A stretch of 64,000 nucleotides of DNA from Buchananella sp. 14KM1171 (GTDB lineage: Bacteria; Actinomycetota; Actinomycetes; Actinomycetales; Actinomycetaceae): assembly GCF_041380365.1 (NCBI RefSeq), contig NZ_CP159981.1:930001-994000 (forward strand), read 5' to 3'. A program made the translations under genes and the position numbers. The number at the start of each line of letters is the position of its first letter. The first letter of the stretch is position 1. Shown here in pieces: positions 13,155 to 36,020 of the stretch. The notes under the pieces were generated by a model. It worked only from the letters and a program-made list of their open reading frames with translations. It was not told where the DNA came from and made no database searches.

Positions 13155-16100
13155 TCAGCGCTCCACCTGCAGGCTCTCGGCGTCGGGGTCCGTCAGGGCG
13201 TAACGCTCTGCGGCGTACGCCCAGGCCGCCGTGTTGGCGCGGCCGTGCACCGCCTCCGGTTCGGCGCACACCATGAGCCGCACGTAACCGCCCTGCAGGT
13301 CGTCGGCGGGGAAGTACACGTCCACCTCGCCACCGGGGGCGGGGAAGGCGGTGACCTGCGGGGCCTGCTCGCGTCCGTCCGGGCTGGGGCTGACCGCCAC
13401 GGGGGTGCCGTCGCGCCAGTGCAGCGGCAGGTATTGGGGGTTGTGCACCAGCATGAGGTGCGGCAGCAGCTCGGGCGGGCAGGGCGTGCCGGCTGCCGCC
13501 CTGACGGTGACGCGCACCAGGTTCTTGGACTTGCCGAGCAGCTTGAATACCGCCCGCGCCGCGCTGGGCCACTCGATGCTGTACTCGAAGCGGTAGAGCG
13601 GATCCAGGTCCACCAGCGCGGGGCGGCCGTAGATCGGCTGGCCGTCGTAGTAGCTGACCGCGTTGAGCTGGACCTGGCTGCCCCAGGTGTCCCCGCCGCC
13701 GCTGATGACGAATCCGCCCTGGCGGCTGTACTCCTGCCGCGTGCAGGTCAGGTCCGCCGGGGCGCACTGGGCGCCCTCCACCGGCACCGGGCCGTTACCG
13801 CCGGTGCGGCGCAGCTGAACGGAGGCGGCCTCGCCGGGCCAGGCGAAGGTGAGCAGCTGCCAGTCGAGTCGCTGCACCAAGCGCACGTCCGCGATCTCGC
13901 CGGAGCGCACCAGCACCTGGGTGCGCCCCACGCTGGCCAGGCCATCGCGGGTCGCCACCGGGGTGAAGTAGAGGCGGTCGTACTCGGCGCCGTCGGGCCA
14001 TTCGACGCCCGTCAGCTGCACCAGGCCGCGCCCCTCCTGCCCCGGGCAGGGGGTGGGGGTGCCGTGCAGTTCGTCCTCGGGGCGCAGGCCGGCGTCCACC
14101 AGCTGCTCCACCCCCACGGTGGGCTGCTCCGCCGCAGCGCTGTGGGGGCTGCGGGTGGTGCGAAACACCCGCACCCGGGTGCCCGGCACGGCCTGCCAGG
14201 TGAGGGTGCAGACGTTGCCGCCGGCAGAGACGTCCGCGTTCACGCTGAAGTGCTGCGGCTTGGCCAGGGGCGCCTGCTGCAGGTCGGCGCGGAACACCAC
14301 CGGCCGGCCCATCTCGAAGCGGTTGCCCACGCGCACCTTTACCGCCGCCAGGTAGACGTAGCGCTGGCCGGGGGTGCCGGTGGAGTCGTCGATCCCGTCC
14401 AGGCAGTTGTACATGTTGGAGGCCAGCGTGTGGTTGAGCCAGGACTCGGTCTGAATCTCCATCCCCACGTTGGCGTCTCCGGGCAGGCGGGCCACCACCA
14501 CCTCGGTGTCCGTCTGGGAGCCCACCGGGGCGCCAGGCACCTCCCACTGGGCGCGCACGGAGGGGCCGGCCACCTCCACTCGCAGGTTCTCCACCTGGGC
14601 AATGTTCACGCCGGCGGCCACCCGCCTGCACTGGCCCAGTTCTCCGTCACCCAAGTCCTCGTAGCCCCACACGGTGATGAACCGGCAGGGCGAGTCCGCA
14701 GGCTGCGGGTCGATCGCGTGGGAGCGCTTGGTCCAGCACACGGTGCGCCCCAGCTCCACGTCGGTGGAGAAGCCGCCGGTCTCCACCACCACCCGGTAGA
14801 CCTCGCCGTCGCCGGCGTCCCGCCACGTGTAACGCAGGCCCTCCCGGGTGCGTTCCGAGCGCACCGAGACCAGCGGCTCCAGGTCGGGGCGGGAGAAGTC
14901 GTACTCCGGGAAGTTCCACTCCTGGCCGTCCTCGCCGCGCCCGGGCGCGGGGGCGGGTGTCGCGGCGCGCAGGGCAGCGCCCGCGGCGTCCTGCCCCGTG
15001 GCGGCGGCGATGGCCGCCTCCTGGGTCGGGTCCAGGCGCGGCGCGGCGGGCGCGGGGTGGGCGGCGGTGGCGGGGGCGTCCGGGCCGGCGGCTGCGGCGG
15101 TTTCCGGGCCGGCGGCTGCGGGGTTATCCGACCCGGCGGCTGCGGGGGCAGTGCCGCGCTCCGGGCTCACCTGGGCGGTCGAGGCTCCGGCCGCAACCAG
15201 GTTACCTCCCGAGTCCAGTTCCATCTCCACGGTGTCCTCAAGCGGCAGCCGTGGGCCCGCGAGCGCGACGGGAGCGGGGTGGGCCGCCGGGTCCGGGGCC
15301 GCCTGCGTCTCCGACGCAACCCTGGGCTCAACCGACCTTGGCTCCGCCGGCTCGACAGGCTCGGCCTCCGCAGGTTCAGTGGGCTCCGCCACCGTGGGCT
15401 CGACTGGCTCCGGCTCCACGGGCTCGGTCACCGTGGGTTCGACCGTCTCGACGGGAGCGTCCGCGCCGCCGACCGCCGCCACGGCGTCCACCTCGACGGC
15501 CTCACCAGCCACCGCCACGAACGGCTCTGCCGGCTCTGCCGCCGGATACTCGGCCTCGGTGGCCTGGGCGATCTCGCTGTGCGGCGCCGCGACCTGACCG
15601 GCGGGCTCCACCGCCTCACCGGGCTGGCCAGGCTCACCGGGCTCGCCCGCTTCAACCGGAACCACCGCCTCATCACGCTGGCCAGGCTCACCGGGCTCGC
15701 CCGCTTCAACCGGAACCACCGGTCCTGACGGCACTGCCGTCGGCTCTTGCGTGCCGGCATGCTGCTCGGCCTCGGCAGGGGCGTCCGCGCCGCCGACCTC
15801 TGCCGGCGCGTCGTCCACCCAGGGCATGTCGTAGGGGGAGAGCATGGCCAGCGGATTTGGACCGAAGGCCGCCCCGCCACCGGGCGCGTACCCGGGGAAC
15901 ACCACGCCGGCAGCGTCGTCCGTTCCCTCATCTACCGGGCCGCCCGCGTCGCCCGCTCCGGCTGCCCCCTCACCGCCGCCGACGCCTTGCCCCGCTCCCC
16001 CACCCTGCGGGGACGCCCCCTGCGCCGGCACCGCCGGGGGGTTGTGCCCGAAGGCGGCGTTCAGGTGGGCACACAGCGGCTCGACCAGGCTCGTGCGCAG

Positions 16101-16292: not shown

Positions 16293-16803
16293 CGGGTCAT
16301 CTCCTCACGGAACGAACGGCCGGTGCCCGATTCCCTTCCGCGCGGCTGGGACCTGCGGGCCAAACGCGTTCGCCGCCCTGGCTGGGCAAGCTCCACATTG
16401 GGACAGCTTACTTCTCCCCTTCTGCCGGTGGGAAACCTACACTCGCCCCGCCATTCGCAGGGGCATTTTGGCCGACGTTCCACCCGCCACCCCACTAAAT
16501 CCGCCTCGCGCGTTTAGTGGCGCTTTCGAATTGTGGGTTTCCCGCGCGCCGGGGCCTGGCGCTTCAACCCGACGTTGCCGCCCCAATCTCGACGTTCGCA
16601 GTTCAATCTCGACGTTCGCATCCCAATCTCGACGTTCGCAGCCCAATCTCGACGTTAGCCTGGGGCAAATCGTCGAGTCGAAGCCCTAAACGTCGAGTCG
16701 AAGCCCCGAACGTCGAGCTGAGCTCCGGCGCGGGGAGCCTCCCTCTCCCTGGGCCCGCCGATCACCTCGCCGACGGCCCGCACCCAGCGCTGGGAGTTTC
16801 CCT
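16293..16803. other. 511-bp intergenic region with promoter zone and repeat array
   Basis: It lies between two minus-strand genes. The half near 16300-16500 should contain the promoter of the 1045-aa protein gene; no convincing -35/-10 pair is seen. It holds an inverted repeat CCACTAAA/TTTAGTGG (16492-16499 and 16513-16520) with a 13-base loop, a possible operator. It also holds one copy of the dispersed TGGCCGACGTT motif (near 16468-16481). The other half carries phased array A. Confidence 0.6.
16567..16716. repeat. Phased 20-bp array A (TCGACGTT elements, diverged)
   Basis: TCGACGTT occurs at 16589, 16609, 16629 and 16649, with a CCGACGTT variant at 16569. After an AGCCTGGGGCAA centre the element is inverted: CGTCGA at 16671 (AT instead of AA before it) and AACGTCGA at 16689 and 16709. 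All eight elements keep an exact 20-bp phase, across the strand switch. The layout is the same as arrays B and C at 35 kb, but the 12-bp spacers differ. Function unknown. Confidence 0.85.
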
Positions 16804-17991
16804 TTAGCGCCCCTCGCCGAGGGAGTATTTCTGCTCGGAGAGCTCAAAGCCCACGCCGGTGCGCTGATTCCAGCAGGAGACGGACTCGTCCAGATAGGTG
16901 CAGGCGAACTCGCCCCAGTAGACCTGCTCTCCGGGCTGCAGCACGTAGACGTAGGTACCCTCGGCGGGGCGGAAGTCCTGTCCACAGGCCAGGTTCGTGC
17001 CGGTGGGGTCCACGGCCAGGGAGAAGACGGACTGGGCGCAGTCCTGCAGCCCGGCTGCGGCGAAGGACCTCTCCGCCATACTGCACCCGGCCTGGAGGTC
17101 CTGCAGGTGGCAGATCACCTTCCCGTCCGGGGATGAGACGAGTCCCTGCTGGGAGGCGTTGAAGTCCACCGGGCGGGCCCAGTCGTCCTCGTCGCGGCTC
17201 GGGGTCGGGGTCGGGGACGCTGTGGGCTGCGCGCTCACCGCTGGCGCGGCGTCCAGTACCGGTTGCGGCGCGGACTTCTCCAGCGCCACCAGGTAGGTGA
17301 CGTAGACGGCCAATGCCAGGGCGGCGAGGACGCCTAGCGCGATGGCGACGGGCTTGAGCACGCGCTTGCGCACGCGCACCCGGGTGATGTCGCGCTTCTT
17401 CTGGGCCAGCAGTGCGGCCCGTTTGGCCGCAGTGGCGGCCTGGTTTTCCCGGTCGCGCTGGAACTGGCGCGCCTGCTCAGCCTGCTCGCGGGCCTGCTCG
17501 GCCAGGGTTTCCTTCACCCAGGTCTGGTAGGCCACGGGGTCCTCACGCTGAATCCACTGGCGCACCCGCTCGCTGCAGTTGGGGTGGGACAGGATACGGC
17601 GGCGCAGCTGCGGGTAGACGCCGGCCAGCTCGGCCAACTGGGCGGCGGACATCTGCGCCTGGCTCTCGGGACAGACCGCGCCTTGACCGGCGGCAAGGAA
17701 GGGGTTGGAGGGCTTTTCCCGCTCCTCCTGCCCGCACGCGCCCAGCAGCAGGTTGATGAGCTCCTCCGAGATGGGCGGGAAGCCGGGGGGAGTCTGCCCC
17801 TGCTGGCCGGCCCCGGCACTCTGGGCTTGACCTGCCCCGGCACTCTGCCCCTGGCTGGTCCGGTCGGCGGCCCTCGTCCCGGCCCGGTCGGTGGCCCTCG
17901 TCCCGGCCCGGTCGGCGGCCCTCGTCCCGGCCCCGTCGCCGGCACCCGTCCCGGCGCCTGCGGGCTTCGCTGCGTCGGGTTCCTTGCGCAT
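16804..17991 (-). CDS. Membrane protein: LRV-like cytoplasmic region, one TM helix, DUF6636-like exterior domain
   Basis: 395 aa from the ATG at 17991, preceded by GAGGGGAGCG; the longer frame lacks this site. Residues 1-75 are Ala/Gly/Arg/Gln-rich repeats (AGTRAADR words). Residues 110-150 (AQLAELAGVYPQLRRRILSH) resemble variant leucine-rich repeats. A charged helix follows, and a TM helix lies at about 217-240. After a Pro/Thr linker there is a Cys-rich domain with an SPDGKVIC start and a CTYLDESVSCWN end. That end matches the pattern of DUF6636 and of the lipoprotein at 44.2 kb. It lies upstream of the GTPase cassette, same strand, but 511 bp away, so co-function is only possible. Confidence 0.75.
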   Translation of the reverse strand: MRKEPDAAKPAGAGTGAGDGAGTRAADRAGTRATDRAGTRAADRTSQGQSAGAGQAQSAGAGQQGQTPPGFPPISEELINLLLGACGQEEREKPSNPFLAAGQGAVCPESQAQMSAAQLAELAGVYPQLRRRILSHPNCSERVRQWIQREDPVAYQTWVKETLAEQAREQAEQARQFQRDRENQAATAAKRAALLAQKKRDITRVRVRKRVLKPVAIALGVLAALALAVYVTYLVALEKSAPQPVLDAAPAVSAQPTASPTPTPSRDEDDWARPVDFNASQQGLVSSPDGKVICHLQDLQAGCSMAERSFAAAGLQDCAQSVFSLAVDPTGTNLACGQDFRPAEGTYVYVLQPGEQVYWGEFACTYLDESVSCWNQRTGVGFELSEQKYSLGEGR

Positions 17992-28942: not shown

Positions 28943-31900
28943 ATGCATAGTTCAACGAGGAATCGAGCAATATCGTTCGCCACCGCGCTAAGCCTTTTGC
29001 TGGCAGCTATCGCGGTGGTGCTGTCAATCTCTCCCGGCGCGTCAGCGACCACCAACACGGACATCGTCGTCCACAGCGTGAAGGTGCAGCGCTACGTCGG
29101 CGCCGGAGCACCGCCCACCTGCGATGACCGGCCGGTCACGCACGGCGCTCGCGTCTGCATCACCTGGAAGTGGGACGCCTCTCAGGCCAACCCCAAGGCC
29201 GGGGACAGCTTCTACCTGGGCCTGCCGCAGAACTTCACGCTCAACGACGTAGCCCCCTACGACCTTGAGACCCCGATCGTGAACGTGCAGTCCGGCGAGA
29301 CCACGATGCAGAAGATCGGCAGCTGCGTGCTACGCCAGCAGACCAACCAGGCTCCGGCCCGCGTCACCTGTACTTTCGACGAGGGGCTTACCCACGCCCA
29401 GGAGCTCGGCAACGAGCACCTCACTGGCGACGGCTGGATCGCAGCTCGCGTACACCACGTAGATGACTCCGTCTCCGGCAATTTCGACCTCAACGGCAAG
29501 GTCGAGAGCGAGAACTACCCGGGCGGCAATCCAATCCCCGCCCCCGGCCCTGGCACTTACTGGGAGCGCCCCATCGATAAGGGTTCCGATGGCGTTCGCC
29601 ACGACACTAAGCGCATCTGGTGGCACATTCGCTTCAACTCCAACGTGCTTGCCCGCCGCCTCAACGGCTCCATCCCCAACCCGCTCCTCATTAGCGACGT
29701 CACTAGCGCGGGCCACAAGTTCCAGACCGACAGCCCTCTGACCATCCGCGTGCTGAACTCTCAGAGCCAGCCGTCTCCGGGCAAGACGATCCGGGTTGGT
29801 ACCACCGACCCGAACCGCGCCCCGATCATCAACGCCGAGGGCCGCACCACCTTCTCCATCGAGCGGACATTCTCTGAGGGCGACAGCAAGATGTCCCTGG
29901 CTATCCGCCCGAACGACGGAGCGGACTGGGAGCCCAACACCAACTACATGATCTCCTACGCCACCCTGCCAAAGACGGACAGCGGCGTGGCCGACCCCGG
30001 CATCATCTACTCCAACAAGGTCGAGATTGTCGGACTGGGCGAGACGATCACCAACAACCAGAACTACGTGGCCGCTGCGGGCGGTAGCGCCACGATGACC
30101 GCCGGCTACGGCTCGTTCTCCGTGGTCAAGCTGGTCGATGGCCCCGCCGCAAATCTGGTCGACCCCAACACCCGAGTGGTCGTCAACGTGAAGTGGACCC
30201 TGCCGGGCGGGAAGACCGCAGCCGACTACCCGGGCTGGACTGCCCCGCCCAGCAACCCGTTCCCGCTTACTCTGCCCATCGGCCAGATCACGAGCTACCT
30301 GCCCAACCCGCTGCCGTTCCCCGCGGACACCACGATTGAAATCAGCGAGGCTTCGGCAGCTCCCGGTGGACCCGAGATCATCTGGAGTAACCCCCGCTTC
30401 CAGATCGGCGCAAACAGCAATACCACCTCCACCGCTACGTTCGACATCGCGGGCGGAAGCGTCACTCCCGTTCAGCTCACGAACTCCGCCAGCTTCAAGC
30501 AGGTGCGTGTGGGTGACTACGTGTGGTTTGACAAGAACAAGGACGGCCTGCAGGACAACACCGACGAACCGTTGCAGAACGTCACCCTGACGATCTCGCG
30601 TTCAGACAACGCCACGGTCAACAGCGCAGACGGCTCGGCCTACCCGAACACCTCCACGCAGACCAACGCCAGCGGCGCCTACAGCTTCGACAACCTGGAG
30701 GTGCTGCCTGCCGGTACCCACTACGTCGTCACCGTCACTAATCCTTCCGGCTACAAGCCGACCAAGGCCAACGTCGGCACCAACCCGGCTCTCGACTCCT
30801 CTACCGGTAGCGCCGAGTCCGGCGACCTAGTCAACGACGGGGATGCAGACCTGACGTTGGACTTTGGTTTTGTGAAGACTGCGCCGGGTATTGATATTGA
30901 GAAGTACGACGGTGTTTGGGCTGGTGTTCAGTTCAATGGCGATAAGCCGGTGTTGAGTAATGGTCAGCCTGCGGTGTTGCCTGCTGGTGACCGTGATGGT
31001 GCTGACCAGGCTTTGGTGCTTTCTGGCCTGGAGGCCCAGCCGGTGAAGTTCACTGTGACTAACACTGGTGAGGACGCGTTGAAGAACGTGGTGGTCACCG
31101 ACCGTACTAATGGTGGCCCGGCCCTGACCGACTTCAAGTGCCGCATCGACAACAAGGACGTGGCTGGGGTTAATGGTGTGGTCACTGCTCCGGCTGATTG
31201 GGTGTTTGCTGCCAAGGCCTCGTTTGAGTGCACCGGTACGCTGCCCAAGCTGGCCGAGGCTGACGCCACTGGCGCCTACCACACCAGCCACGCCAACACC
31301 GCCACGGTTGAGGCTGTCCCGGTTGCTGGTGGTGACAAGGTCACTGATAGCGATGAGTGGCACGCCAAGCGCGGCAAGGTGAGTGTGGGTGACTACGTCT
31401 GGTTCGACGCGAACAAGGACGGCCTGCAGGACAACTCTGATGTGCCGCTGAAGGACGTCACCCTGACCATCTCGCGCACCGACAACAAGCCGGCCAAGAA
31501 GATCGACGGCAGCGTGGTGACCACCACGACCACTGACGCTGCGGGTAAGTACCTCTTCGCCGACCTGGAAATCCTCCCGGCAGGCGTGAAGTACAAGGTT
31601 GCTGTTACCACCCCGGATAACTACGAGCCCACCACTGCTGGTGCTGGTAGCGACCGCGCCAAGGACTCCTCCACTGGTAGCGAGACCGCGGTAGAGCTGC
31701 CCACTGATGGCGGCAAGGACCTGAGCCTGGACTTTGGTTTTGTTAAGAAGCCCACGGGTATCGACATCGAGAAGTACGACGGTGCCTGGAGCGGGGTGAC
31801 CTTCGACCAGGACGGTAACGCCGAACTGGTTAACGGCCAGCCCAAGGTCCTGCCCGCTGGTGACCGTGACACCGAGGACGCGGCCCTGGTCCTTTCTGGC

Positions 31901-34900
31901 CTGGCTGCCCAGCCGGTGAAGTTCACCGTTACCAACACTGGTAAGGGCGAGCTGAACAACGTCAAGGTCACCGACCAGACTCTGGCCGGCCCGGCCCTGA
32001 CCGATCTGAAGTGCCACATCAACGGCACCGACATTGCTGCTGTTAACGGCGTGGTCACTGCTCCGGCCGACTGGATCTTCGCACCCCAGGCCTCCTTTGA
32101 CTGCACCGCTACCCTGCCGGCCATCACGGACGCTGCCAAGCACGCCAACAAGGCCACCGTTGAGGCCACCCCGGTTGCTGGTGGTGACAAGGTCAGCGAC
32201 AACGACGACTGGCACGCCAAGCGCGGCAAGGTGAGTGTGGGTGACTACGTCTGGTTCGACGCGAACAAGGACGGCCTGCAAGACACCAGCGACGTGCCGC
32301 TGCAGGACGTCACCCTGGCCCTGTCCCGCACGGACGACAAGCCGGCCAAGAAGATCGACGGCAGCGTGGTTACCACCACCAAGACCGACGCGGCCGGTAA
32401 GTACCTCTTCGCCGACCTGGAAATCCTCCCGGCAGGCGTGAAGTACAAGGTCACCGTCGCACCCCCGGTCAACTACGAGCCCACCACTGCTGGTGTCGGG
32501 ACCGACCGCGCCAAGGACTCCTCCACCGACAGCGAGACTGCGGTAGAGCTGCCCAACGATGGGGACAAGGACCTCACGCTGGACTTTGGTTTTGTTAAGA
32601 AGCCCACGGGTATCGACATTGAGAAGTACGACGGTGCTTGGAGTGGGGTGGTCTTTGACCAGGCGGGTAACGCTGAGCTGGTTGATGGTCAGCCCAAGGT
32701 CTTGCCCGCTGGTGACCGTGACACCGAGGATGCGGCCCTGGTGCTTTCTGGTCTGGCTGCCCAGCCGGTGAAGTTCACCGTGACTAACACGGGTAAGGGC
32801 GAGTTGAACAATGTCAAGGTTTCTGACACCACGATTGTTGGCCCGGCCCTGACCGACTTCAAGTGCCGTATTGATGGCGCTGATGTGGTGGCTGTTGATG
32901 GTGTGGTTAGTGCTCCGGCGGCTTGGGTGTTTGCGCCCAAGGCTTCGTTTGAGTGCACCGCTACCCTGGCGGCCATGACGGATGCGGCCAAGCACGCTAA
33001 CACCGCCCGGGTGGAGGCCACCCCGGTGGCTGGTGGTGACAAGCTCACCGATAGCGATAACTGGCACGCCAAGCGCGGCAAGGTGAGTGTGGGTGACTAC
33101 GTCTGGTACGACGCCAACAAGGACGGTCTGCAAGACGCCAGCGACGTGGCGTTGGAGGATGTGACCTTGACCCTGTCTCGCACGGACGGCAAGCCGGCCA
33201 AGAAGGTCGACGGCAGCGTGGTTACCACCACCACGACCGACGCGACCGGTAAGTACTTGTTTGCTGACCTGGAGATCTTGCCGGCAGGCGCGAAGTACGT
33301 GGTGACGGTTACCAACCCGCGTGGTTTTGTTCCCACCACTCCTGGGGCTGGCAGTGACCGGGCCAAGGACTCCTCTACTGGTAGCGAGACCGCGGTCGTG
33401 TTGCCTAATGATGGGGACAAGGACCTGAGTTTGGACTTTGGTTTTGTTAAGGCCAAGGTGAGTGTGGGTGACTACGTCTGGTTCGACGCGAACAAGGACG
33501 GCCTGCAAGACGATGACGAAAAGGGCATCAAGGACGTGGTTTTGACCATCTCGCGTACGGACGGCAAGCCCGTTAAGGACGCTGATGGCAACCCGGTTAC
33601 CACCACCACTACCGACGCTAGCGGCATGTACCTGTTTAAGGACTTGGAGATGCTGCCAGCGGGTGAGAAGTACGTGGTTACTGTCACCGACCCGGCCGGC
33701 TACGTACCCACCAAGGCCGAGGCGGGCAGCGACCGGGCCAAGGACTCCTCTACTGGTAGTGCTACCGCCCAGGAACTGACCCAGGACGGGGCTAAGGACC
33801 TCACCCTTGACTTTGGTTTCTTCTTCCCCGAGGTCAGCGTGGGTGACTACGTCTGGTACGACGTCAACAAGGACGGCCTGCAAGACGGCACCGATGTGCC
33901 ACTCAAGGACGTCACCCTGACCATCTCCCGTAGCGACGGTAAGCCGGTCAACAACGCTGACCACACCGCCCGCACCGAGCTGACCACCACCACCGACGAG
34001 CACGGCAAGTACGCCTTTACTGGTCTGGAAGTCCTCACCGGTGAGGTGAAGTACATCGTTACCGTTACCGCCCCGTTCGGTTACGTGCCGACCAAGGCCG
34101 GCATGAACAACGGTGCTGGTAGTGATGACTCTTCTACCCAGACCTCGGCCAGCGTGGCAGACCTGTCCACCGACGGGGCCAACGACCCCACCTTGGACTT
34201 TGGTTTCATCAAGGCCAAGGTGTCCGTGGGTGACTACGTCTGGTTCGACAAGAACAAGGACGGCCTCCAAGACACCGGCGAGCCCGGTATCAAGGACGTC
34301 ACCCTGACCCTGACCGGCCCGGACGGTAAGAGCGTCACCGACGTCAACGGCAACCCCGTTGGCCCGGTCAAGACCGACGAGCACGGCAAGTACCTCTTTG
34401 AGAACCTGCCCGTGCTACCCCAGGGTGAGTCCTACACCGTCACGGTCAGCGACCCGGCCGGCTACCTGCCCACCAAGGCCGGTACCAACAACGGCCAGGG
34501 AGCCAACGACTCTTCCACCACGACCTCGGTCAGCCTGGCAGACCTGTCCACCGACAGCGCTAGCGACCTGACCTTGGACTTTGGCTACTACAAGCCCTCA
34601 GTTACCGTGGGTGACTACGTCTTTGAAGACCTCAACGACAACGGAATCCAGGACAACACCGACAAGCCCATCGCTGGTGTGACCCTGAAGATCACCGGCC
34701 CCGACGGCAAGGACGTCACCGACGTCAACGGCAACCCCGTTGGCCCGGTCAAGACCGACGAGAACGGCAAGTACCTTTTCGACAACCTGCCCGTCCTGAA
34801 GGACAACCAGTCCTACACCGTCACCATCACCCCGCCCGCGGGCTACCAGCCGGCCAAGACCGGCCAGGGCACCCGGGAAACCGACTCCTCTACCGACAAG

Positions 34901-35098
34901 GCCACCACCATCGGCCTGACCAAGGACGGAGACAAGGACCTCTCCCTGGACTTCGGCTTCAAAAAGCCCACCACCAAGGGCGGCAAGGGAGGCAAGCTGG
35001 CCAAGACCGGCACCAACGCCCTCACCCTAGCCCCCTACGCCCTAACCCTGCTGGCAGCCGGAGGCACACTCCTCCTCCTACGCCGCAAGAAGAACTAG
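28943..35098 (+). CDS. Giant LAxTG-anchored adhesin 2 with SdrD_B-like and DUF11-like repeats
   Basis: 2051 aa. A signal peptide (1-35) ends in SPGASA. The head (36-518) has the same plan as adhesin 1 (signal peptide, KWDASQANPKAGDSFYLGLP-like early motif, a YGSFSVVK segment) but clearly different sequence. Then come eight SdrD_B-like and three DUF11-like domains, and LAKTG at 2019-2023 with a hydrophobic stretch and RRKKN. From residue 636 on it appears identical to adhesin 1, while the head and first SdrD_B-like domain are distinct. The pair thus displays two different heads on the same stalk. Sortase-anchored surface protein; ligand unknown. Confidence 0.93.
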   Translation: MHSSTRNRAISFATALSLLLAAIAVVLSISPGASATTNTDIVVHSVKVQRYVGAGAPPTCDDRPVTHGARVCITWKWDASQANPKAGDSFYLGLPQNFTLNDVAPYDLETPIVNVQSGETTMQKIGSCVLRQQTNQAPARVTCTFDEGLTHAQELGNEHLTGDGWIAARVHHVDDSVSGNFDLNGKVESENYPGGNPIPAPGPGTYWERPIDKGSDGVRHDTKRIWWHIRFNSNVLARRLNGSIPNPLLISDVTSAGHKFQTDSPLTIRVLNSQSQPSPGKTIRVGTTDPNRAPIINAEGRTTFSIERTFSEGDSKMSLAIRPNDGADWEPNTNYMISYATLPKTDSGVADPGIIYSNKVEIVGLGETITNNQNYVAAAGGSATMTAGYGSFSVVKLVDGPAANLVDPNTRVVVNVKWTLPGGKTAADYPGWTAPPSNPFPLTLPIGQITSYLPNPLPFPADTTIEISEASAAPGGPEIIWSNPRFQIGANSNTTSTATFDIAGGSVTPVQLTNSASFKQVRVGDYVWFDKNKDGLQDNTDEPLQNVTLTISRSDNATVNSADGSAYPNTSTQTNASGAYSFDNLEVLPAGTHYVVTVTNPSGYKPTKANVGTNPALDSSTGSAESGDLVNDGDADLTLDFGFVKTAPGIDIEKYDGVWAGVQFNGDKPVLSNGQPAVLPAGDRDGADQALVLSGLEAQPVKFTVTNTGEDALKNVVVTDRTNGGPALTDFKCRIDNKDVAGVNGVVTAPADWVFAAKASFECTGTLPKLAEADATGAYHTSHANTATVEAVPVAGGDKVTDSDEWHAKRGKVSVGDYVWFDANKDGLQDNSDVPLKDVTLTISRTDNKPAKKIDGSVVTTTTTDAAGKYLFADLEILPAGVKYKVAVTTPDNYEPTTAGAGSDRAKDSSTGSETAVELPTDGGKDLSLDFGFVKKPTGIDIEKYDGAWSGVTFDQDGNAELVNGQPKVLPAGDRDTEDAALVLSGLAAQPVKFTVTNTGKGELNNVKVTDQTLAGPALTDLKCHINGTDIAAVNGVVTAPADWIFAPQASFDCTATLPAITDAAKHANKATVEATPVAGGDKVSDNDDWHAKRGKVSVGDYVWFDANKDGLQDTSDVPLQDVTLALSRTDDKPAKKIDGSVVTTTKTDAAGKYLFADLEILPAGVKYKVTVAPPVNYEPTTAGVGTDRAKDSSTDSETAVELPNDGDKDLTLDFGFVKKPTGIDIEKYDGAWSGVVFDQAGNAELVDGQPKVLPAGDRDTEDAALVLSGLAAQPVKFTVTNTGKGELNNVKVSDTTIVGPALTDFKCRIDGADVVAVDGVVSAPAAWVFAPKASFECTATLAAMTDAAKHANTARVEATPVAGGDKLTDSDNWHAKRGKVSVGDYVWYDANKDGLQDASDVALEDVTLTLSRTDGKPAKKVDGSVVTTTTTDATGKYLFADLEILPAGAKYVVTVTNPRGFVPTTPGAGSDRAKDSSTGSETAVVLPNDGDKDLSLDFGFVKAKVSVGDYVWFDANKDGLQDDDEKGIKDVVLTISRTDGKPVKDADGNPVTTTTTDASGMYLFKDLEMLPAGEKYVVTVTDPAGYVPTKAEAGSDRAKDSSTGSATAQELTQDGAKDLTLDFGFFFPEVSVGDYVWYDVNKDGLQDGTDVPLKDVTLTISRSDGKPVNNADHTARTELTTTTDEHGKYAFTGLEVLTGEVKYIVTVTAPFGYVPTKAGMNNGAGSDDSSTQTSASVADLSTDGANDPTLDFGFIKAKVSVGDYVWFDKNKDGLQDTGEPGIKDVTLTLTGPDGKSVTDVNGNPVGPVKTDEHGKYLFENLPVLPQGESYTVTVSDPAGYLPTKAGTNNGQGANDSSTTTSVSLADLSTDSASDLTLDFGYYKPSVTVGDYVFEDLNDNGIQDNTDKPIAGVTLKITGPDGKDVTDVNGNPVGPVKTDENGKYLFDNLPVLKDNQSYTVTITPPAGYQPAKTGQGTRETDSSTDKATTIGLTKDGDKDLSLDFGFKKPTTKGGKGGKLAKTGTNALTLAPYALTLLAAGGTLLLLRRKKN

Positions 35099-35203
35099 CC
35101 CACAACGCTAGAACCAGGAGACCAAACCCCTAAAACAGGCAAACTCTCCTAAACCCCCAGGGCCCGGACTGGACCACCAACAAACGGACCAGCCCGGGCC
35201 CTG
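30848..35203 (+). repeat. 4356-bp near-identical block, copy 2
   Basis: Partner of 24238-28593; it covers the 3' two thirds of adhesin 2, its stop codon and the following hairpin. Sequence before and after the block is unrelated between the two loci. Confidence 0.95.
35158..35203 (+). terminator. Terminator-like hairpin after adhesin 2
   Basis: Second copy of the 15-bp stem with one mismatch found after adhesin 1, 59 bp after the stop codon, again without a T tract. Confidence 0.6.
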
Positions 35204-35250: not shown

Positions 35251-35430
35251 CCCAGCTCGACGTTTGGTGTTCCAGCTCGACGTTTGACGCCCCAGCTCGA
35301 CGTTTGGTGCCCCAGCTCGACGTTTGGTGTTCCAGCTCGACGTTTGGAGCTTCAACTCGACGTTAACCAGGGGCAGAACGTCGAGTTGAAGACCCCAACG
35401 TCGAGTCCAAGCCACGAACGTCGAGTCCCA
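35251..35430. repeat. Phased 20-bp array B (6 forward + 3 inverted TCGACGTT elements)
   Basis: TCGACGTT starts at 35257, 35277, 35297, 35317, 35337 and 35357; the reverse complement AACGTCGA starts at 35377, 35397 and 35417. Every step is exactly 20 bp, including across the switch. Spacers are 12 bp and variable. The central pair forms a perfect 15-bp stem (35350-35364 with 35377-35391) around the loop AACCAGGGGCAG. It lies just downstream of adhesin 2. Confidence 0.92.
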
Positions 35431-35440
35431 ACAACCCAGT

Positions 35441-35580
35441 CGCCCGCCAATGGCGGAGGGGCTGGTGGTGGAGTCTGGGTGGCGAGTCGCGGCGGTGCGC
35501 CCGCCAACGGCGCAGGGGCTGGTGGTGGAGTCTGGGCGGCGGGTCGCGGCGGTGCGCCCGCCAACGGCGCAGGGGCTGGT
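35441..35580. repeat. 57-bp tandem repeat between arrays B and C
   Basis: The word AGGGGCTGGTGGTGG starts at 35457 and 35514, and AGGGGCTGGTG at 35571, spaced exactly 57 bp. That gives two full units plus partial flanking ones. The period is a multiple of three, but no start codon with a ribosome site makes a credible gene here. Confidence 0.85.
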
Positions 35581-35600
35581 GTCACCAGGGGCCGGGCCCT

Positions 35601-35730
35601 TGACGCCCCAACTCGACGTTTGGTGTTCCAGCTCGACGTTTGGAGCTTCAACTCGACGTTAACCAGGGGCAGAACGTCGAGTTGAACACCCCAACGTCGA
35701 GTCCAAGCCACGAACGTCGAGTCCCAACAA
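35601..35730. repeat. Phased 20-bp array C (3 forward + 3 inverted elements)
   Basis: TCGACGTT starts at 35613, 35633 and 35653 and AACGTCGA at 35673, 35693 and 35713, again every 20 bp. The central stem is 14 bp (35647-35660 with 35673-35686) with the same AACCAGGGGCAG loop as array B. From about 35622 on it is nearly identical to the second half of array B, so B and C are a local duplication around the 57-bp repeats. Confidence 0.92.
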
Positions 35731-35755: not shown

Positions 35756-35791
35756 GTGCCGGGCAGGAGCCCTCCAACTCCTGCCCGGCAC
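35756..35791 (-). terminator. Rho-independent terminator of the small membrane protein gene
   Basis: A perfect 14-bp stem (35756-35769 with 35778-35791) with an 8-base loop. On the minus strand it is followed by CTTTTTGTG. It sits 4 bp after the stop of the 74-aa gene. Confidence 0.85.
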
Positions 35792-35795
35792 ACAT

Positions 35796-36020
35796 TCAGA
35801 GGCTGCCAACTAGCCCTGTGACAGCCAAGAGCAGTTTGCCCACCAGCCGGGTGATCCCGTATACGAGTGCGATCAGCGACGTGGCTGATAACGCCAACGC
35901 GAACCACGAGATCGGCTCCCTCAAACCGTCTAGCATTCGCGTTTTCCGTTCGGTCTCTTTCCCTGACTGGCCGGGCTCGCTTGAGAGGTGATCTCGCGGC
36001 GAAACCTGGGGCCTGCTCAT
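35796..36020 (-). CDS. Small single-pass membrane protein
   Basis: 74 aa (ATG at 36020), or 46 aa if an internal ATG at 35936 is used; neither has a strong ribosome site. The first 40 residues are polar. A hydrophobic segment (ISWFALALSATSLIALVYGI) is followed by a Lys and a second hydrophobic stretch to the C-terminus. The strong terminator directly behind it on the same strand is the main evidence that it is expressed. It is divergent from menE. No family recognised. Confidence 0.55.
   Translation of the reverse strand: MSRPQVSPRDHLSSEPGQSGKETERKTRMLDGLREPISWFALALSATSLIALVYGITRLVGKLLLAVTGLVGSL

Follow-up and report, generated by a model that had tools for sequence, protein, structure and literature searches.

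Intergenic DNA of Buchananella sp. 14KM1171 (G000, a 2.36-Mb genome in a single contig) contains at least 56 copies, at no fewer than 30 places, of a module in which a short site is repeated in 20-bp register, first in forward and then in reverse orientation. Our preferred reading, to which we give a probability of about 0.4, is that the modules are a BIME-like but non-palindromic platform for a candidate DNA-wrapping protein at the ends of transcription units, where they would serve in handling supercoils or in insulation. On this reading the arrays are not genes, CRISPRs or RNA structures, and the module does not fit the known bacterial repeat families against which it was tested.

Three arrays (A, B and C) lie in the window, that is, the whole 64,000-nucleotide stretch that was analysed. 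These arrays and the features around B and C are:

16569-16716, no strand assigned: array A, five forward and three reverse sites in 20-bp phase; the first forward site is CCGACGTT and the first reverse site ATCGTCGA
28943-35098, + strand: large surface-protein-like ORF of 2051 aa, with its 3' end towards arrays B and C; by eye, its C-terminus resembles a sortase sorting signal
35159-35202, + strand: terminator-like hairpin (-28.4 kcal/mol) between the stop codon of the large ORF and array B
35257-35424, no strand assigned: array B, six forward and three reverse TCGACGTT sites at 20-bp steps
35365-35376, no strand assigned: centre spacer of array B, 12 bp, AACCAGGGGCAG; the module axis
35431-35606, no strand assigned: spacer between B and C; by eye, an imperfect longer tandem repeat outside the 20-bp phase
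35613-35720, no strand assigned: array C, a minimal module of three forward and three reverse sites, 108 bp
35756-35791, - strand: terminator-like hairpin with 16 pairs and a T-run, right of array C
35796-36020, - strand: putative 74-aa ORF, presumed coding, whose 3' end and terminator-like hairpin face B and C

The initial annotation described nine (B) and six (C) copies at 20-bp steps with an in-phase switch of strand, and these coordinates proved exact throughout. In array B, TCGACGTT lies on the + strand at 35257, 35277, 35297, 35317, 35337 and 35357 and its reverse complement at 35377, 35397 and 35417; in array C, the forward copies are at 35613, 35633 and 35653 and the reverse complements at 35673, 35693 and 35713. 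Every step in both arrays is exactly 20 bp, including the one across the strand switch. TCGACGTT occurs 23 times in the window, compared with 0.96 copies expected and a maximum of 4 in 100 shuffles, and 21 of the 23 copies belong to arrays A, B and C. The perfect centre stem described earlier is present in both B (15 bp) and C (14 bp), with AACCAGGGGCAG as the loop, but the proposed conservation of this loop did not hold. Outside the window the exact loop is found only at genome 1643 kb, in two of the three modules there (with a two-base difference in the remaining one), and it is absent from all other arrays. By eye, the G+C-rich spacer between B and C (35431-35606) is similar to sequence between the modules at 1643 kb. 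The two called ORFs that flank array A have internal 24-bp repeats (window 17860-17956 and 15086-15146).

Genome-wide, there are 130 direct pairs of the form TCGACGTT-N12-TCGACGTT (68 on the + strand and 62 on the - strand) versus 0 and 3 for the control (backwards) pattern. Besides the window we sampled 33 further stretches, 27 around matches and 6 free of arrays. A rule-based count in the 28 array stretches gave 395 units in the 56 modules; the rule tolerated a single mismatch to any of four core variants in the central sites and two in the outer ones, and it left out a forward-only run at 540.8 kb and two insert-split modules, one half of which is within the 56. A profile of the 3+3 arrangement (120 columns, built from 31 modules) had at least 156 matches in the genome, and all of those among the matches listed, with 150 of 686 candidates scored, fell in the same 30 places. 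The figure of 30 is a lower bound because the list leaves out the weakest matches and because of that scored fraction. Random spacing of the 8-mer elsewhere, which the initial annotation had named as evidence against its claim, was not seen: the six array-free 20-kb stretches (120 kb) have two solitary copies of TCGACGTT. Modules are also duplicated in tandem. The run at 540.8 kb (about 540785-540853) lacks a reverse arm and is the third repeat of a tandem set of modules. The genome has other tandem repeats as well, with periods of 18, 22 and 16 bp (L021 4715-4817, L024 1228-1304 and L032 7628-7683, respectively).

The geometry of the module is strict. Whether the order of orientations is constant had been raised as a question, and the answer is clear: all 56 modules have a forward run followed by a reverse run, with one switch per module, and no reverse-then-forward pair at exactly 20 bp occurs in the 56 modules and 28 stretches. 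The spacing at the centre is 20 bp in 39 modules and 19 bp in 17; the 19-bp centres are found at three rRNA operons (L016, L027 and L033) and at one other place (L029). A site of the TCGACGAA type often adjoins the centre of the rRNA modules and, together with the 19-bp spacing, sets a second class apart. Of the 56 modules, 49 have a shorter arm of exactly three sites and 2 have one of four, and in 5, including one interrupted by an insert, it has fewer than three; longer arms range from 2 to 10 sites. Since three is so common in the shorter arm, the minimal common module is 3+3, which spans 108 bp from the first core to the last.

The site itself is nearly fixed. The core reads T(C/A)GACG, which is the near-invariant part, followed by TT or AA, and among 376 units the variants are TCGACGTT (258), TAGACGTT (76), TCGACGAA (26), TAGACGAA (7) and others (9). 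The unit is laid out approximately as YTCAAC or TGAATC, the core, YG and a variable remainder. The spacers, which the initial annotation described as varying, are partly conserved. The two arms tend to differ in type, with (T/C)GAATC before the core in one and YTCAAC in the other. In eight groups of paralogous modules, 10 of 256 outer-core columns vary, compared with 75 of 576 spacer columns (Fisher p 3e-5). This comparison leaves out the pair that carries an insert, and also the two central cores because they had been used to pick the modules; with everything included, the counts are 24 of 432 versus 91 of 648 (p 7e-6). Constraint falls on the DNA sites more than on the spacers.

As far as searched, the module is restricted to one species of its family. 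The motif is absent from both congeners (G001 and G002) at up to three mismatches, and the 3+3 profile found no match in 212 other genomes of the family under stricter filters, with 17 candidates scored per genome. The same filtered search recovered 21 of the 156 matches in G000, so an array-rich genome is detectable and a weak one could be missed. The exact pair occurs once, in one of 58 other relatives. Downstream of the three 5S genes of the congener G002 there is a hairpin-like stretch and other sequence, with no such array in the bases examined. In 399 kb of the approximately 2.5 Mb of G002, no 8-mer is found three times at 20 bp, and a scan for 8-mers at this spacing scores 416 in the 339 kb of array stretches of G000 (window included) and nothing in those 399 kb; G001 was scanned for this motif and for profile R1. 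Beyond the family, the exact triple motif matches three stretches in a collection of genome contigs, which may omit records very near the genome of the window. Two of these, in a proteobacterial MAG and in Natronomonas, have three copies each at 20 bp, and the third, in Oceanobacillus limi, is a local 20/21-bp minisatellite after a gene and is present at one place in that genome by the exact pattern. The O. limi array (AACGTCGATAAC..., L010 7040-7860) lies immediately after the gene end and is either chance or a parallel case. The viral contigs gave one chance-like match to the triple motif, and the plasmids and phages gave no match to the array motif; near-relative records may be missing from these collections.

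The modules lie between genes and mostly at their ends. No called gene overlaps any of 32 array stretches (our own gene calls account for 75% of the DNA and were supplemented manually with some genes, tRNAs and rRNAs), and a coding repeat, one of the alternatives to be considered from the start, is rejected on these grounds and because a period of 20 is not a multiple of 3. The gaps that carry arrays are tandem in 22 cases, convergent in 9 and divergent in 1, the divergent one being an insert-split array. Divergent gaps are thus depleted (1 of 32, compared with 14 of 56 array-free gaps of at least 200 bp in the same stretches; p 0.008, or 0 of 30 and p 0.002 when the two split arrays are merged) and convergent gaps enriched (9 of 32 versus 5 of 56; p 0.03). 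Once the split arrays are merged, all array gaps adjoin at least one gene 3' end, and within tandem gaps the arrays show no tendency to lie nearer the 3' end than the 5' end (12 of 22). The gap that holds B and C was scored as tandem and is convergent if the 74-aa ORF on the - strand is real.

Many arrays stand beyond a terminator-like hairpin. B and C have one on both sides. Hairpins were scored in the 31 flanks where a 3' end faces the array across 50-400 bp: in 19, one between gene end and array beats all 12 mononucleotide shuffles, many of these being long G+C-rich stems by eye, and 12 have no such strong hairpin. At five flanks the array is only 19-39 bp from the stop codon, which leaves little room; one of these stops is that of an IS transposase. 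All three rRNA operons found by comparing 10 stretches with Rfam have an array that starts about 150 bp past the 5S gene; rRNA operons without arrays may exist elsewhere because the stretches had been chosen for their arrays. tRNA genes are near arrays at three places, and one array is upstream of its tRNA. The neighbouring proteins are ordinary (for example, 6-phosphogluconolactonase-like, RsfS, DNA polymerase III alpha, acetate kinase, glutamate dehydrogenase, a class II (D/K/N) tRNA synthetase and transporters); 9 of 40 examined had no Pfam match at E 0.001. The polarity of the modules matches that of the flanking genes in 10 of 13 tandem-gap places, which in this hand tally is a trend only (two-sided p 0.09). 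Of the 30 places, the tally omits 5 whose strand scores are ambiguous or mixed, 10 that are convergent and 2 with unsure genes; the place at 608 kb, with two modules of each polarity, does not enter it.

Some arrays have been disturbed by other elements. Two are interrupted by inserts, each with its own inverted repeats and an 8-bp target duplication: a 3.9-kb insert with MULE/Mutator and rve transposases at 1048474-1052341 (L021; duplication CCACCTCA) and an ISL3-type element at 1668230-1669687 (L027; duplication CGAAAACC). REPs serve as IS targets, according to PMC1525189, and by analogy the arrays may be preferred targets too. A duplicate of the final 1.5 kb of the large ORF, 99.5% identical, lies at another locus, about 1638.5-1643.2 kb (L026), and is followed by the same hairpin and by similar arrays. 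Recombination between such surface-protein-like genes may use the arrays as homology.

The modules are predicted to be bent. With a wedge table that passed a sanity check on A-tracts, the predicted ratio of end-to-end distance to contour averages 0.81 in 38 modules, compared with 0.93 in shuffles and 0.949 (sd 0.029) in 300 random 120-mers, and 37 of the 38 are predicted to be more bent than the mean of their own shuffles. Arrays B and C would bend less (0.85 and 0.86; 13% of 30 shuffles are equally bent), and in a control that permutes the unit and keeps the repeat, 3.5% of 400 are as bent. Shortening the units to 15-18 bp removes much of the predicted bend (0.90-0.96), and lengthening them to 22-23 bp keeps it (0.83 and 0.79). 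A step of 20 bp is therefore not distinguished by predicted bending. Nor does the 10-bp A/T harmonic stand out, being equalled by 23% of permuted units.

That the modules are DNA sites is well supported; the protein and its role we infer. Among the roles first offered was a landing pad on one side of the helix for a DNA-binding protein, and it gained support from the 20-bp phase, the greater conservation of cores than of spacers, the 3+3 rule and the lack of pairing covariation. A partition-type role is disfavoured, with 56 modules scattered over 30 places. We think that a protein probably binds the modules. The module usually has at least three forward and at least three reverse cores in a 20-bp register, or about two helical turns, over about 108-128 bp, and its two-fold axis falls in the central spacer. 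All sites would share one face of DNA that is predicted to be bent. This geometry (one face, a two-fold axis and about 110-130 bp) would suit a single protein complex that wraps the module. We postulate that the modules hold such a DNA-wrapping protein, with gyrase as the first candidate and a nucleoid protein as the second, past the ends of genes, where transcription would accumulate positive supercoils, and that neighbouring transcription units would thereby be insulated. We offer supercoil handling or insulation as the role tentatively, and we doubt that gyrase in particular is the binder.

We chose a BIME-like platform because the gyrase motif and its enrichment at rRNA operons and BIME-2 are the closest documented parallel. 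In E. coli, according to PMC6379681, this motif is 130 bp with arms phased at 10 bp, and gyrase accumulates both in BIME-2 and downstream of rRNA operons; the same paper states that the motif does not hard-wire the enrichment seen after operons. A core that hardly varies points to a protein that recognises a specific sequence, rather than to gyrase alone. Counting against a role in topology, the profile search of 212 genomes did not find the module in relatives, which have supercoils of their own to manage. A more specific version, a lineage-specific chromosome insulator in which a species protein or gyrase on the fixed 3+3 module seals the ends of transcription units, rRNA operons included, is a somewhat doubtful one. 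If it were true, at least 30 topological boundary sites would have arisen in one species and none elsewhere in the family as far as searched. The module also suggests that a system of this kind can spread throughout the genome of a single species in its genus.

Other explanations start from the same features. One possibility is that a dedicated DNA-binding protein makes each module a two-way roadblock, a back-up terminator or fork barrier that halts polymerases from either side. The forward-then-reverse order of all 56 modules would give one polar block per direction, and the position at gene ends (often beyond terminator-like hairpins), the three rRNA operons and the agreement of polarity with the genes are what such a block would predict. 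However, that agreement is non-significant and is not separable from replication direction, a block has no obvious need of unequal arms or extra modules, and no candidate protein was found; we consider a roadblock unlikely. The modules might instead be a non-autonomous mobile or selfish element, the fused left and right ends of a lost Mu- or Tn7-like transposon with three transposase sites each, that has spread past gene ends. Restriction to one species of the family, dispersal at unrelated gene ends, three sites per arm and two arm types with different flanking hexamers would all be expected of such an element. On the other hand, no parent with cargo lies between the arms at any of the 30 places, both inserts bring inverted repeats and 8-bp duplications of their own, and no sharply conserved outer ends were seen. 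A search for RAYT/Y1 transposases (Y1_Tnp, PF01797) found none in G000, with positive controls in 5 of 14 genomes; a search of the genome for Mu-transpos_C also found none, but its control matched nowhere. With these two families searched genome-wide, the second without a working control, no parent emerged that would make the arrays remnants of a known transposon, and we regard the mobile element as rather improbable.

A neutral satellite, whose units spread through slippage, gene conversion and segmental duplication and have no function, would fit the tandem duplication of modules, the duplicated 3' 1.5 kb of the large ORF beside its arrays and the other tandem repeats of the genome. It would not readily account for cores that are conserved over spacers, a phase that is maintained across the inversion, the 49 of 56 modules whose shorter arm counts exactly three sites or a biased location, and we think it quite unlikely. 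Lastly, the forward and reverse arms could pair as a long hairpin, either in a structured RNA, as the initial annotation had suggested, or as a cruciform. In its favour are the perfect centre stems of B and C and the 79% of cells that are pairable, compared with 25-49% when the arms are slid, although any inverted repeat would give that. In 31 modules, however, doubly changed cells number 22 against a shuffle mean of 32.9, with 500 of 500 shuffles equal or higher, and the C/A site in the central stem is unpaired in 16. Pairing of the arms shows no covariation, which makes an RNA or cruciform unlikely, and many arrays lie past terminator-like hairpins; on these two grounds we reject this explanation as highly improbable. 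At the gathering score, Rfam 15 has no family in the window and finds only rRNA and tRNA in 10 of the 27 other array stretches.

A literature search, which included the 8-mers as text and mostly covered work outside subscription journals, found no description of such an array in the text available. CRISPR arrays have a regularly spaced repeat and variable spacers. The present arrays differ in their 8-bp core, their partly conserved 12-bp spacers, the strand switch and their presence at 30 places. The ends of Mu (attL and attR) and Tn7 each have about three directly repeated transposase sites, with the two ends opposed. The module resembles these in its roughly three direct sites per arm and its opposed arms, but it has no cargo, no conserved tips were seen and it amplifies in place.

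REPs are extragenic and multi-copy, as are the 395 units in 56 modules, which overlap no called gene. The reverse-strand core contains CGTC, as in the GTAG- and CGTC-tagged REPs (Di Nocera 2013, PMC3733652). In that report, REPs are mostly downstream of coding regions, and CGTC REPs have 8-9-bp stems and 4-5-base loops and are rarely clustered. Unlike them, single units here form arrays and fold no better than shuffles. Membership among REPs is rejected, since the units are not palindromic: 123 distinct 28-base unit windows have an MFE of -3.47 compared with -3.68 in shuffles, and their longest stem averages 4.7 versus 4.5, with a slight excess of stems of at least 6 (28% versus 20%). The gyrase motif and the strong gyrase sites of Mu and of E. 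coli Topo-Seq (PMC6379681) are similar in length (about 130 bp), in helically phased arms about a centre and in a position downstream of rRNA operons; the gyrase motif is degenerate in sequence, whereas the core here is nearly fixed.

A further close likeness is to BIMEs and BIME-2 of E. coli, clusters of REPs to which gyrase and IHF bind. According to PMC2817692, PMC1525189 and PMC6379681, these too are extragenic, restricted to a species and present in many copies, with opposed units; they are near gene 3' ends and in convergent gaps and are hit by IS elements, and BIME-2 is known to bind gyrase. They are REPs in alternating orientation, however, and their units are palindromes, whereas here a non-palindromic unit of 20 bp is directly repeated in helical phase, with usually three sites in the shorter arm and a single switch per module, so the module is not a BIME; nor does this genome have a RAYT-type (Y1) transposase that the search could find. 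The module is BIME-like in its address and its opposed symmetry, yet it fails the defining test of REPs and BIMEs, palindromic units. The role of REPs and BIMEs is still disputed, and the module has a similar address but an explicit geometry: three plus three sites, one face and a fixed axis. This geometry predicts the shape of the binding complex, and therefore makes a role of extragenic repeats in topology directly testable in one organism.
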